64,000 bases of DNA from positions 1 to 64,000 of the forward strand of contig JAILPS010000014.1 in NCBI GenBank assembly GCA_024699325.1, in the 5' to 3' direction. Below the pieces are notes generated by a model. It made no database searches, had not been told where the DNA came from, and saw nothing but the letters and a program-made list of their open reading frames with translations. Source of the DNA: Lachnospiraceae bacterium. GTDB taxonomy: Bacteria; Bacillota; Clostridia; Lachnospirales; Lachnospiraceae. The translations under genes and the position numbers were made by a program. Of the stretch, positions 51,915-60,539 are shown piece after piece. Each line of letters opens with the position of its first letter. The stretch's first letter is position 1.

Positions 51915-52095
51915 TTACAAATAATAAAACTTATTATTAAAATCATTTGGAGTTTATAAAGGTTTCGTGAAGAATGGGCCGTAATTATTGACACTGAAAA
52001 ACTGCGAGAATATAATCAAATCAGTGTGCAAATTCTGCCTGTTTTTGGGCTTATTTGCCGTTGGATGTGTTATATATGCAGGAGAGCATTTATAT

Positions 52096-53856
52096 ATGGG
52101 CAAAGTGATCGGAATAGATTTGGGAACCACAAACAGCGCTGTGGCCGTCATGGAGGGCGAACAGGCTGTAATAATAACCAACTCTGAGGGGGCTAGAACC
52201 ACCCCCAGCGTTGTCGCGTTCTCAAAAAACGGAGAGCGCTTTGTCGGGGAGAAGGCCAAGAGACAGGCGTCCGTCAACACGGACAGAACCATCTCCTCCA
52301 TCAAGAGACGCATGGGAAGCGACTACCGCGTGCATATAGACGATAAGGAATACTCCCCGCAGGAGATTTCGGCGATGATCTTAAAGAAGCTTAAGAAGGA
52401 CGCCGAAAACTATTTAGGAGAGAGCGTTAATGAGGCGGTCATAACCGTGCCTGCCTACTACACTGACGCGCAGCGCCAGGCCACGAAGGACGCCGGAAGG
52501 ATTGCGGGGCTTGATGTCAAGAGAATAATCAACGAGCCCACAGCCGCGGCGCTTGCATATGGGCTGGACAACGGTGAGTCCCAGAAAATCTTAGTTTACG
52601 ATCTGGGCGGCGGAACATTTGACGTGTCTATAATAGAGCTTGGCGACGACCTGATAGAGGTTTTGTCCACCGCAGGCGACAACCACCTGGGGGGCGACGA
52701 CTTCGACGAGAGGCTCGCGCAGTTCATGGTGGAGCAGTTTCAGAAGTACCAGAAGGTCAAGATCTGCAAGGATGTGACTGCGATGGCGAGGATTCGCGAG
52801 GAGGCGGAGAAGGCCAAGAAGGAGTTAAGCTTTGCAGAGAATTATAATGTGAACCTTCCCTTCATCACCACGAGGAAGGGCGAGCCTGTTCACATGCAGA
52901 TGAACATAACCAGGAAGATGCTTGAGGAGCTTATAAGGGACCTGGTGGACAGAACCGAGACCCCTGTAAGAACCGCACTTAACGATGCGCATCTGACTCC
53001 CATGGATATCGACAGAGTTCTCTTAGTCGGAGGCTCCACGAGAATTCCCATGGTGGTCACGAAGGTTAAAAACATGTTGGGACGCGAGCCCTCTAAGAGC
53101 ATAAACCCTGACGAATGCGTCGCCATAGGCGCAGCCATACAGGGCGGCAAGATGACGACAGGAAGCTATGCGCTGTCGGCGGATTCGAAGGTGAGCCAGA
53201 TAGTCCTGATGGACGTAACTCCGCTGTCTCTCTCAGTTGAGACCATCGGAGGAATAGCAAACAGAATAATAGAGAGAAACGAGACCATCCCTGTAAGGCA
53301 GAGTAAGATTTTCTCCACCGCCATGAATTTCCAGACCACTGTAGAGGTCAAGGTATATCAGGGCGAGAGGAGATTTACCAGGGATAATAAGCTCCTTGCT
53401 TCATTTAAGCTGGAGGGCATCAAGAGGGCGCTCGCCGGAACCCCTCAGATCGAGGTCACATTTGACATAGATGTTAACGGCATACTGAAGGTTTCAGCGA
53501 AGGATTTGGGAACCGGAAGGCAGCAGCAGGTCACCATCACATCCACCACCAACCTGAGTGAGGAGGAGATTGAGAGGGCCTGCGCGGATGCCGCAAGATA
53601 TGAGAGCGAGGAAAACAGAAGATTAGAGCTGGTGGAGATTAGAAACGAGGCGGAGAGCTTAGTTTACAGCGTGGAGGAGAGGCTTGATAAGGCCAAGAGC
53701 TCCATGGACAGAGCAGAGTACAAGCAGATAAGAGCGGATAAGGATGAACTTAAGAAGATGGTGGTGAAGACATCACCTGAGAGGATAACCGAAATGGAGG
53801 CCGGAAGAATTAAGGAGGCCATGGAGGTTTTGAGGGCTTCGTCAGCCCGGCTATAA
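52096..53856 (+). CDS. Hsp70-family chaperone (DnaK-like, short C-terminus)
   Basis: [80 protein letters not shown] aggaga upstream of ATG 52096. Confidence 0.93.
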
Positions 53857-53879
53857 TAATGACAAGGGTGGGTGATCTT

Positions 53880-54287
53880 ATGTTGGCAAAAATCAGGAAT
53901 TCCCTCTGCAATTTCATGCGGGGAAGGTATGGACTTGATACCCTGGGGAATTTTCTTCTGATTATCGGCGTAATTCTGGCTTTTATCAATTTATTTTTAG
54001 GCAATACTGTGGTATGCTTGTGTGCGTGGCTGATGCTTGTGATAGCATATGCGCGAATGTTCTCGAAGAAGTATGAGAAGCGAAACGCAGAGAATGTCTG
54101 GTTTCTGGAGAGAACGACCAGAATCAGAGAGTGGCTTAACAAACATCTGGCAAGAATCCGCATCCGCAGGACACACCACATTTACACATGTCCCGGCTGC
54201 AAGCAGAAAATCAAGATACCCAAGGGCAAGGGTGAGGTTACCATAACCTGCCCTAAATGCAGAATAGAATTTACCAAGAAGAGTTGA
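53880..54287 (+). CDS. small membrane protein with C-terminal zinc ribbon
   Basis: Two TM segments; YTCPGCKQKIKIPKGKGEVTITCPKCRIEF; between Hsp70 and DUF5685-like genes. Confidence 0.75.
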   Translation: MLAKIRNSLCNFMRGRYGLDTLGNFLLIIGVILAFINLFLGNTVVCLCAWLMLVIAYARMFSKKYEKRNAENVWFLERTTRIREWLNKHLARIRIRRTHHIYTCPGCKQKIKIPKGKGEVTITCPKCRIEFTKKS

Positions 54288-54288
54288 T

Positions 54289-55167
54289 ATGTTTGGATAC
54301 ATAGTAGTTAACAAACCGGAGCTTAAGGTCAGGGAGTTTGACAGATATCAGGAATATTACTGCGGACTGTGTCACGCGCTTAAGGATGAATATGGTCAGC
54401 TTGGGAGATTTTGCCTAAGCTATGACATGACATTTCTGGCGATGCTTCTGTGCGGGCTCTATGAGCCTGAGCTGGCGCGCCACGATGACATGTGCCCCCT
54501 GCATCCCATGCAGAAGAGACCGTATCTGTCGGCGGATATTTTTAAATATGTTGCTGACATGAACGTGATTTTGATGTATTATAAATGTTTGGATGACTGG
54601 GAAGACGAGAAGAAGGCGGGAAGAGGCCTGTACGCTCTAAGCCTTAAGAAGGCCATGGAGAGCTTAAGGGAGCGCTATCCGGACAAATGTAAGAAGATTG
54701 CGAAGCTTCTTAGGAAGAACTCCGAGGCCGAGAAGGCGTTTGCGGGAAGGAAGCTCACTTCCAGGGCGCTTGACTATCTGTCAGGGCTCTCAGGGAAGAT
54801 GCTTGCCGAGGTTTTCGCCATGAAGGATGACGAGTGGAACGACGAGCTCAGAAAGCTTGGCTTCTATCTGGGCAAATTCATCTACTTAAGTGACGCGTAT
54901 GCGGACATGGAGGAGGATGATAAGAAGGGACGCTTCAATGCATTTGCAAGCTACAGGGACAGAGAGAATTTTGAAAACTGGGTCCACAGTCTGCTTCTCA
55001 TGAGCGCCACATCGGCGGCGAGATATTTTGAGATGCTGCCCATCATAGAGGATGCACAGATATTGAGAAACGTCATCTACGCCGGCATATGGACCGGCTA
55101 TCAAACAGCTAAAAGGAGAAGAGCGGACCATGACAGATCCTTATCAGATACTGGGCGTCAGTCGTGA
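54289..55167 (+). CDS. DUF5685-like protein
   Basis: MFGYIVVNKPELKVREFDRYQEYYCGLCHALKDEYGQLGRFCLSYDMTFLAMLLCGLYEPE. Confidence 0.72.
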   Translation: MFGYIVVNKPELKVREFDRYQEYYCGLCHALKDEYGQLGRFCLSYDMTFLAMLLCGLYEPELARHDDMCPLHPMQKRPYLSADIFKYVADMNVILMYYKCLDDWEDEKKAGRGLYALSLKKAMESLRERYPDKCKKIAKLLRKNSEAEKAFAGRKLTSRALDYLSGLSGKMLAEVFAMKDDEWNDELRKLGFYLGKFIYLSDAYADMEEDDKKGRFNAFASYRDRENFENWVHSLLLMSATSAARYFEMLPIIEDAQILRNVIYAGIWTGYQTAKRRRADHDRSLSDTGRQS

Positions 55168-55891
55168 CGCGTCGGAGGATGATATCAAGAAGGCTTACAG
55201 AACGCTGAGCCGCAAATATCACCCCGATTCCAATATAGGTAAGAGTGAAGCAGCGCAGAAGGCCGCGGAGGAGAAGTTTAAGGAAGTTCAGAAGGCATAT
55301 AAGGCAATAGTAAGTGGGGAGGCCGCATCGCAGTACGACAACCAGTATGGTCCCGGAAGCAGCAGAGGACAGAGTTCGTACGGTCAGAGCGCCTACGGCG
55401 GTGGATTTTCAGGCTACAGCGGAAACTACTCCTCAAACTATGGAGGTTACGGTCAATATAACTATAATCCCAATGGTCAGGGTGGCTACAGAAGTCCTGA
55501 GCAGTCCAGAAACGAAGCCTACTACACAGCCTGTGCAAACTATCTTCGAAACCGCATGTACATGGAGGCCTACAGAACACTCACCGACATCCCCGACAGG
55601 GATGGCAGATGGTATTATTACAGCGCCATGGCCAATGCCGGCATGGGCAACCAGACAAGCGCGCTGTCTGACATAGAGACTGCGATAATGCTTGAGCCCA
55701 ACAACATGGAGTACAGGCGTTTCGCCGAGAGACTGTCAAACGGAGGCGGCTGGTACACAGAGGTTGGCAAAACTTACGGACAGCCCGACACAAGCGGTTC
55801 GAGCGTATGTGTCAAGATTTGTCTGTTCACGATTTGCTGCGGCTGCAGCGGCGGAAGCTCAGGCTGTTATTTCCCTCTGTTTTGTCTCTAA
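55130..55891 (+). CDS. J-domain protein with Y/G/S/Q-rich linker, TPR-like region and Cys-rich tail
   Basis: MTDPYQILGVSRDASEDDIKKAYRTLSRKYHPDSN (HPD); SSYGQSAYGGGFSGYSGNYSSNYGGYGQYNYNPNGQGGY; tail CVKICLFTICCGCSGGSSGCYFPLFCL. Confidence 0.9.
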   Translation: MTDPYQILGVSRDASEDDIKKAYRTLSRKYHPDSNIGKSEAAQKAAEEKFKEVQKAYKAIVSGEAASQYDNQYGPGSSRGQSSYGQSAYGGGFSGYSGNYSSNYGGYGQYNYNPNGQGGYRSPEQSRNEAYYTACANYLRNRMYMEAYRTLTDIPDRDGRWYYYSAMANAGMGNQTSALSDIETAIMLEPNNMEYRRFAERLSNGGGWYTEVGKTYGQPDTSGSSVCVKICLFTICCGCSGGSSGCYFPLFCL

Positions 55892-58493: not shown

Positions 58494-58757
58494 TTATGCC
58501 ATCTTGTTAACAGCAAGTGAGAGACGAGAAACCTTACGAGAAACTGTGTTCTTGTGGTATACGCCCTTCTTGCAAGCCTTGTCAAGTACGCTTGTAGCCT
58601 CAACTAATGCTGCAGAAGCTGCTGCCTTATCGCCTGCTGCGATAGCTGCATCTACCTTCTTAACATATGTCTTAACCTTAGACTTGATAGCCTTGTTGCG
58701 CTCTGTCTTTGTCTTAATAACAAGAATTCTCTTCTTAGCTGACTTAATATTTGCCAT
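58494..58757 (-). CDS. rpsT: 30S ribosomal protein S20
   Basis: MANIKSAKKRILVIKTKTERNKAIKSKVKTYVKKVDAAI. Confidence 0.97.
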   Translation of the reverse strand: MANIKSAKKRILVIKTKTERNKAIKSKVKTYVKKVDAAIAAGDKAAASAALVEATSVLDKACKKGVYHKNTVSRKVSRLSLAVNKMA

Positions 58758-58932: not shown

Positions 58933-58969
58933 GAAAAAGGGCTGACAACAGGTCAGCCCTAACTAAACG
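58933..58969 (-). terminator. terminator of the zinc-finger lipoprotein gene; copy 1 of a ~37-nt repeat
   Basis: GAAAAAGGGCTGACAACAGGTCAGCCCTAACTAAACG. Confidence 0.8.
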
Positions 58970-58989: not shown

Positions 58990-60177
58990 TTATTCGACAG
59001 GATTGCATTCCGGACATGGAATGTATCCGCTTCCTCCGCATTCGCACATAACCTTGCCGTTTCCCTCACATTCTCTGCAGACCAAGGTTCCTTCGCCGTT
59101 ACAGTCCTGACAGGTCAGAATACCGCTTCCAGGAGCTGTGCGGTCCTGGCTGTTGGGGTCGCCGCATCTGTGGCAGGTAAAGTGGCAGTTTCCACCGCAC
59201 TGTATACATTTGCCGGTTCCGCCACAGTATACGCAGGTGTCATAACCTACTATAACGCCCGTATCATACCAGGTCTCGCCCTCCTCAGGTCCCGCAGTCA
59301 CTGCCTGAATGCCGGTTCCCTGACAATATGCACAGTTGCCGGTTCCGTTGCAGGCAGCACATGTCTCCGGGTCATATCCGGAACCGCCGCAAAGGTCACA
59401 TACCGTTCCGCCTGTTCCTTCGCATCTGGCACATGTGACTATACCGCTGCCCGCGCAGATTACGCAGGTGCATTCTCCCTCACCGTTACACACAGGACAG
59501 AGAATTTGCCCGCTTCCGTCGCAGGTATGGCAGGCCACCTGAATGTCTGTCTCTGGCTGCGTATCAGGATTATCCGTCTCTGGTTCTGAATTAGGATTAT
59601 CCGGGTTCACAACTGCCGTGAGAAGTGTTACGTCCACTTCATATTCATCCACCACATTCTGTGCAGAAACGCGTGCCACCTCCAGGTTTTCCTGTACTTC
59701 TTCCACCCTGGATTCGTCCACAATGCGCTCCACAGTGATTTCAGCCTCTTCATTGTTTCCGAGGAATCCCTGCTGGTAAGACTCTTCGAAAATCTCCTCG
59801 ATTCCGTCGGCAAATGGAAGGCCGTCCAAGCTTATCTCGGCACATACAGATTCCGCGTCCGCATTCAGGCACTCCACATCCATGATGCACATCTCTTCAT
59901 CGAGATACAGCCTAAACTCCGGATTGATGCGGACAAACACAACCGCGCTGAAATTATATTCTTCAACAGAAGGAATAACTGGCTCCTTAGTGACATCCGC
60001 TTCCTGTGAAAATGTTGTTTCCATGGTTTCACTCTCTGAAACCTCTGCATCAGTTTTGGATGCAGCAGTGGTTACAAGTTCAGAAACATCACCACCTGTG
60101 TCCGGGGTGTTTTCAGAACACGAGGTCATAAGAGCACACGTCAAAATACAACAAACAAGTAACTTTAATTTCTTCAT
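58990..60177 (-). CDS. lipoprotein: RsgI-middle-like domain plus long array of DnaJ-type zinc-finger (CxxCxGxG) repeats
   Basis: Lipobox CILTCALMTSC; FVRINPEFRLYLDEEMCIMDVECLNADAESV...; 10 exact CxxCxGxG motifs plus degenerate ones. Confidence 0.85.
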   Translation of the reverse strand: MKKLKLLVCCILTCALMTSCSENTPDTGGDVSELVTTAASKTDAEVSESETMETTFSQEADVTKEPVIPSVEEYNFSAVVFVRINPEFRLYLDEEMCIMDVECLNADAESVCAEISLDGLPFADGIEEIFEESYQQGFLGNNEEAEITVERIVDESRVEEVQENLEVARVSAQNVVDEYEVDVTLLTAVVNPDNPNSEPETDNPDTQPETDIQVACHTCDGSGQILCPVCNGEGECTCVICAGSGIVTCARCEGTGGTVCDLCGGSGYDPETCAACNGTGNCAYCQGTGIQAVTAGPEEGETWYDTGVIVGYDTCVYCGGTGKCIQCGGNCHFTCHRCGDPNSQDRTAPGSGILTCQDCNGEGTLVCRECEGNGKVMCECGGSGYIPCPECNPVE

Positions 60178-60294
60178 TGGTAATTCCTCCTAAAAAGAGC
60201 TAATCATTAGAATATCACTTAAAAAATGTCTATACACAAATGTATTTTTATAGATACATTATAGCACTATGTGTCAGTCAATTCAACGACAAAA

Positions 60295-60335: not shown

Positions 60336-60539
60336 TTAAGCGATAGGTGTTACATTGACAGCCTGAAGACCTCTGTTGCCCTCTGCTGTGTCATATGAAA
60401 CCTTCTGTCCGTCCTCAAGAGTCTTGTAACCCTCCTTAGCGATGCCGCTGAAGTGAACGAAAATGTCCTTGCCATCCTCATCATCTGTGATGAAGCCGTA
60501 TCCCTTAGATGCGTTAAACCACTTAACTGTACCTGTCAT
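60336..60539 (-). CDS. csp: cold-shock protein
   Basis: [33 protein letters not shown]. Confidence 0.97.

Follow-up and report, generated by a model that had tools for sequence, protein, structure and literature searches.

In the model of the RsgI anti-sigma factor set out in PMC12203970, the periplasmic domain autocleaves, strand β1 later separates and RseP then cuts the membrane helix; the outer domains are described there as ligand sensors. The self-cutting domain has so far been understood in these terms: in membrane-spanning regulators, its cut starts a membrane-protease cascade. DnaJ zinc domains, in turn, bind substrate. For PSA2, which has a DnaJ-like zinc finger and resides in the thylakoid lumen, a disulfide isomerase activity is proposed (PMC4806229). 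Here we describe a gene that combines elements of both systems. It lies in a 64,000-nucleotide stretch from a Lachnospiraceae bacterium, an anaerobe of gut or rumen type (contig JAILPS010000014.1, positions 1 to 64,000; hereafter, the window), where an open reading frame (ORF) at 58990-60177 on the minus strand, starting with ATG, encodes a 395-amino-acid (aa) lipoprotein with an RsgI_M domain and a long CxxCxGxG array, a layout matched in homologues. We give about an even chance to the reading that this protein is a self-cleaved stalk in two pieces, anchored by lipid, which holds out a zinc-stabilised binding array and is able to release it.

The ORF opens with a type II signal peptide (60118-60177, minus strand, as are all features of the gene given below), which terminates in the lipobox LMTSC and is the sole hydrophobic stretch of the protein; there is no transmembrane helix. 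The lipobox, already recognized in a first-pass annotation of the DNA, satisfies a PS51257-type rule with Cys20 as the predicted lipidated residue, Cys20 is invariant across 8 aligned relatives, and the lipoprotein signal peptidase LspA is encoded in the same genome. We therefore predict, as that annotation had proposed, that the protein is exported and lipidated, and so anchored outside the membrane rather than cytosolic. Two linkers separate its folded parts. The first (residues 21-77; 59947-60117) is of low complexity, rich in Ser, Thr and Glu and predicted to be disordered, with pLDDT <50 nearly throughout; the second (residues 187-215; 59533-59619), also with pLDDT <50, carries a two-copy 27-bp repeat (PETDNPD/PETD; 59549-59603 by Tandem Repeats Finder, TRF).

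Between the linkers, an RsgI_M (SEA-like/SEAL) domain (residues 78-184; 59626-59946) was identified by Pfam, AlphaFold and Foldseek. The Pfam RsgI_M profile PF23750 scored 52.8 bits over residues 78-184 (cut-off 25.3, E 7.9e-14), and AlphaFold, using an alignment that held just three lipoprotein relatives, returned a pLDDT of about 70-90 for most of residues 78-180. The ten best Foldseek matches of this model in the PDB were all RsgI extracytoplasmic domains, led by B. subtilis RsgI (8t9n; E 1.9e-6, TM-score by target 0.84) and followed by C. thermocellum RsgI2, RsgI6, RsgI1 and RsgI9, and a PDB search by sequence also returned an RsgI domain first. Profile and fold thus agree on the RsgI-like middle domain that had been noted from the sequence alone.

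We considered whether the protein is itself an RsgI anti-sigma factor and rejected this identity, which the first-pass annotation had likewise judged improbable: the protein lacks a Pfam RsgI_N domain, a transmembrane helix and a cytoplasmic domain, and SigI (TIGR02895) had no match at E 1e-3 in its genome (98.4% complete). RsgI_N also had no match in this genome at E 1e-3, with a model that is insensitive and missed most RsgI_M genomes. Just two RsgI_M genes were found in the genome, both encoding lipoproteins, and no transmembrane-type (TM-type) RsgI_M gene was detected.

The domain contains a predicted autoproteolysis site, Asn85-Pro86 (59920-59925), assigned by alignment to solved RsgI chains. 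Pro86 aligns with the first residue, also a proline, of the C-terminal chains 8her_B, 8heq_B and 8hdj_B, and the dipeptide falls after the first predicted strand (78-83) and before the second (87-92). I84-N85-P86 is kept in 13 of the 13 array lipoproteins described below, where the commonest residue averages 41% per domain column and the only strictly invariant domain residues are I84, N85, P86, N105 and A108. Because the cut site is invariant where the protease cascade cannot run, the cut, or a strained joint, should have a use of its own.

The array (residues 216-391; 59005-59532) comprises 14 CxxC-type knuckles. All ten exact CxxCxGxG motifs listed by the first-pass annotation are present (at residues 216, 227, 238, 249, 260, 273, 282, 315, 356 and 367), together with degenerate knuckles at 324, 335, 378 (CxC) and 388, so that the 188-residue tail holds 30 cysteines. 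In 20,000 shuffles of this tail, exact motifs averaged 0.15 and never exceeded 3, versus the 10 observed; a DNA pattern for three tandem 11-aa units occurred 3 times in the window, all within the ORF, and 0 times in 100 shuffles. The glycines are conserved and the 11-aa spacing is fixed. Within the DNA of the array, TRF detected no tandem repeats, suggesting that the units are old or strongly diverged and not a recent expansion. In the Pfam search, the array reached 14.2 bits against the 32.7 required for the family DnaJ_CXXCXGXG (PF00684), a shortfall we attribute to a unit spacing (mostly 11 aa) that differs from that of DnaJ. Five units (residues 214-271) were modeled separately, using 27 aligned array segments of other bacterial and archaeal proteins; the best model had a pLDDT of 82, and its nearest solved folds, at weak E-values of 0.05 and above, were DnaJ-type zinc domains (DnaJA2, E. 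coli DnaJ 1exk and human DnaJA3), BSD2 and anti-TRAP. By analogy with these proteins, the 14 knuckles may pair to form about seven zinc sites. An exported DnaJ was rejected as an identity, as Pfam detected neither a J domain (PF00226) nor C-terminal substrate domains; an ordinary DnaJ-type zinc domain of the same genome lies elsewhere, at C7:44010.

The three-part layout of lipobox, RsgI_M and array is shared by at least 13 lipoproteins, which come from two families and about ten genera (near-duplicates among them are L268/L269, L171/L041 and L043/L044), and relatives keep frame and layout at 26-35% identity. RsgI_M matched in 96 of 299 same-family genomes; the ORFs around these matches were mostly TM-type RsgI, and 8 lipoproteins in 7 genomes carried RsgI_M followed by an array. 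Three further members, in the second family, came from an order-level profile search, and the array-plus-domain relatives run through Pfam all scored above the RsgI_M cut-off. A survey for tandem arrays, using the three-unit DNA pattern and one genome per species, yielded at least 118 array loci, at least 3 of which combine lipobox, RsgI_M and array; among the matches listed, these were all Lachnospiraceae-type records, one of them an Acetatifactor metagenome-assembled genome in which the gene is already counted among the eight lipoproteins above. By peptide pattern, no close homologue was found in the genome or viral contigs searched, and a full alignment of relatives contained no stretch conserved enough for such a search. 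A tree built from 145 RsgI_M domains united the 13 array lipoproteins with four lipoproteins whose outer parts differ in one clade (SH-aLRT 95), which is separate from the TM-type RsgIs and from lipoproteins carrying PepSY. Given the few columns and weak inner support of this tree, the array may have been gained once or several times within the clade.

The occurrence of this layout in relatives from at least two families indicates that the surface protein represents a genuine type, apparently one not described before. In the limited literature searched, we found no paper on RsgI with lipoproteins and Lachnospiraceae, on SEAL/RsgI_M lipoproteins, on a fusion of the present kind, or on exported bacterial CxxCxGxG lipoproteins. 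The shared three-part family, the invariant INP site and the alternative outer modules on RsgI_M lipoproteins are new, and the first two of these went beyond the first-pass annotation.

The observed basis for a releasable stalk consists of the ORF, lipobox, domain, predicted fold, array, family and invariant site, with no SigI or RsgI hits, and from it we infer cleavage, zinc binding, a partner and release. From the membrane outward, the lipid anchor would be followed by the self-cleaving RsgI/SEAL stalk and then by the zinc-finger array, with a flexible linker on either side of the stalk. Once the protein is exported and lipidated, the stalk would fold and cut its own Asn85-Pro86 bond, as in RsgI domains, leaving an anchored piece (about residues 20-85) and an outer piece (86-395) held together through a shared β-sheet. 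The array, a string of DnaJ-type knuckles that may pair to bind about seven zinc ions, would be displayed outside the membrane as a module for binding some partner. The non-covalent joint could then serve as a releasable or force-sensitive coupling, in which a pull frees the array and a lipid-anchored stub remains; unlike RsgI, the lipoprotein would send no signal to a sigma factor.

Several observations weigh against this model. The full-length structure prediction showed the array as unfolded, which is why five units were modeled separately, and one of the five resulting models was confident (pLDDT 82, then 68, 67, 43 and 36). Structure prediction, which the first-pass annotation had suggested, gave a confident, RsgI-like stalk; the resemblance of the array to zinc-binding DnaJ-type domains was weak (E 0.05 or worse). 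Asn-Pro is also usual in TM-type RsgI_M domains (104 of 112), so its retention could be partly structural. In two genomes of the second family (G418 and G397), the NP of the array lipoprotein is replaced by GP in an array-less paralogue, so not every member requires cleavage. Finally, comparison of nine relatives revealed no shared neighbor gene or conserved operon partner, and the neighborhoods thus offer no conserved gene as a clue to the partner.

The same evidence allows two other accounts of the array. It could act as an extracytoplasmic holdase or thiol-disulfide helper that binds unfolded secreted proteins or shuffles disulfides, with RsgI_M as a mere spacer. Substrate binding by DnaJ zinc domains speaks for this, as do the DnaJ cysteine-rich domains and the Rubisco chaperone BSD2 among the fold neighbors of the array model. 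PSA2 adds an extracytoplasmic precedent (PMC4806229). However, the protein lacks both the J domain and the C-terminal substrate domains of DnaJ, a general folding helper would be expected to be widespread and yet is present in just 7 of 299 family genomes, and a mere spacer leaves the 13/13 conservation of INP unexplained; we consider this account unlikely. A surface metal buffer appears somewhat less probable again; here the roughly 30 cysteines would act much as a metallothionein does, storing or scavenging zinc or other soft metals at the envelope. The density of 30 Cys within 188 residues would suit such a role, and some relatives adjoin genes with links to metals as read from their sequences (Fur-like and MgtE-like in L050/L171; a CobW-like GTPase near L159), but the conserved glycines and fixed 11-aa spacing point to a scaffold with a fold of its own and not to a flexible chelator, and the window gene adjoins rpsT and cspA, not a metal gene, with no neighbor common to relatives.

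Beyond the array, RsgI_M lipoproteins carry PepSY, RHS-like, β-helix-like or acidic outer modules, and the grouping of array lipoproteins with differently equipped ones in a single clade fits a stalk with exchangeable outer modules. More broadly, we would put slightly below an even chance the proposal that RsgI/SEAL domains of Clostridia have left sigma signaling and now serve generally as self-cleaving stalks on a lipid anchor, which display exchangeable modules and release them when pulled, as a bacterial counterpart of the SEA stalks of animal mucins. Whether self-cleavage is a signaling step or a general mechanical release joint is a question that could be addressed in one small protein.

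The second RsgI_M lipoprotein of the same genome (L062/L008, contig C55:2888-3268; about 654 aa) has, after RsgI_M, a weak pectate-lyase-like adhesive stretch (PF20585, E 0.0017, below cut-off). Another RsgI_M lipoprotein (L270:1399-2877), within the array-lipoprotein clade, has a C-terminal RHS-repeat-like part. At the cleavage site, two paralogues of array lipoproteins (L296:2332-3267 and L297:2159-3154) read GP rather than NP, and where the array would be they have a very long Asp/Glu tail.

In about a dozen family genomes, an RsgI_M lipoprotein directly adjoins a TM-type RsgI gene (L122:2797-3705, L113:1531-2625 and L117:3150-4514, with similar pairs in L101, L106, L108, L110, L116, L120, L123, L128 and L132), and the order lipobox, RsgI_M, PepSY was found in all three of those run through Pfam. 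The two genes look like an unremarked cassette. Such PepSY-type lipoproteins beside TM-type RsgI show that RsgI_M lipoproteins can accompany signaling, and, by analogy with the ligand-sensing outer domains of RsgI (PMC12203970), the array protein could be a sensor or decoy for another signaling path, its cleaved stub or freed array informing a partner receptor. We regard this, too, as improbable, marginally more so than a metal buffer, since the window genome has no detectable SigI or TM-type RsgI and the array genes are solitary and fall in a different clade from the PepSY set.

Exported CxxCxGxG arrays also occur without RsgI_M in Bacteroidota, Actinobacteria and Clostridia (L198, L223, L235, L177, L220, L149, L192 and L251). 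DnaJ-type arrays that are exported thus seem to form a broader group, as yet unexplored; such long zinc-type arrays outside the cytoplasm recur in gut and rumen anaerobes. In the same order, three ankyrin-like membrane-associated proteins of about 710-740 aa (L005, L279 and L292) carry a long CxxCxGxG array.

The gene is flanked by cspA (60336-60539) and rpsT (58494-58757). It is preceded by an AGGAGG ribosome-binding site (60186-60191, by sequence) and a promoter-like TTGAAT-17-TATAAT with TG preceding the -10 element (60258-60286, by consensus scan only), and is followed 3' by an intrinsic-terminator-like hairpin (58938-58960), suggesting a single-gene transcript. Its third-position GC content (GC3) is 0.50, compared with 0.65-0.67 in four neighbors, and its codon usage is atypical for the window; a protein search of three same-genus genomes (two of them 71-76% complete) did not find the gene. 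This patchy occurrence and deviant GC3 suggest horizontal acquisition without showing it. They might also be taken as signs of a degenerate former RsgI or a functionless chance fusion, which we disfavor as highly improbable because the layout recurs, with lipobox, INP and Cys/Gly pattern invariant, in about ten genera at 26-35% identity. Elsewhere in the window (51988-55891), genes for an HSP70 (DnaK-like) protein, a small zinc-ribbon protein, a DUF5685 protein and a J-domain/TPR-like protein cluster in what is apparently a second DnaK-J system without link to the array lipoprotein. Located 3-7 kb from the gene, this cluster was considered as a partner and set aside, as it is not retained near relatives.

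In comparison with known systems, the protein shares with RsgI (B. subtilis RsgI and C. thermocellum RsgI1-9) the RsgI_M domain by profile and fold, the Asn-Pro dipeptide and a flexible linker to a variable C-terminal module; here, however, a lipid anchor replaces the SigI-binding cytoplasmic domain and transmembrane helix, no SigI was found in the genome, and the outer module is a Cys array instead of a carbohydrate-binding or enzyme domain. With the cysteine-rich domain of DnaJ (Hsp40; PF00684) it has in common CxxCxGxG knuckles and likely paired zinc sites, but DnaJ has four motifs, compared with 10 exact ones (14 knuckles) mostly 11 aa apart here, and the array protein is predicted to be exported, falls below the Pfam cut-off and lacks the J and C-terminal domains. 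BSD2 and anti-TRAP (AT/RtpA), among the folds nearest to the array model, are compact zinc domains of the DnaJ type that lack a J domain, as the array may be, although they are short, reside inside cells or in the chloroplast, and bind Rubisco or TRAP. In the thylakoid lumen, PSA2-type proteins also place a DnaJ-type zinc finger outside the cytoplasm, but PSA2 is a plant photosystem I biogenesis factor with no SEAL domain or lipid anchor. The exported array proteins of Bacteroidales (lipoproteins L198 and L223) and Clostridia (L149, L192 and L251) share the spacing of about 11 aa, and differ in having no RsgI_M domain.
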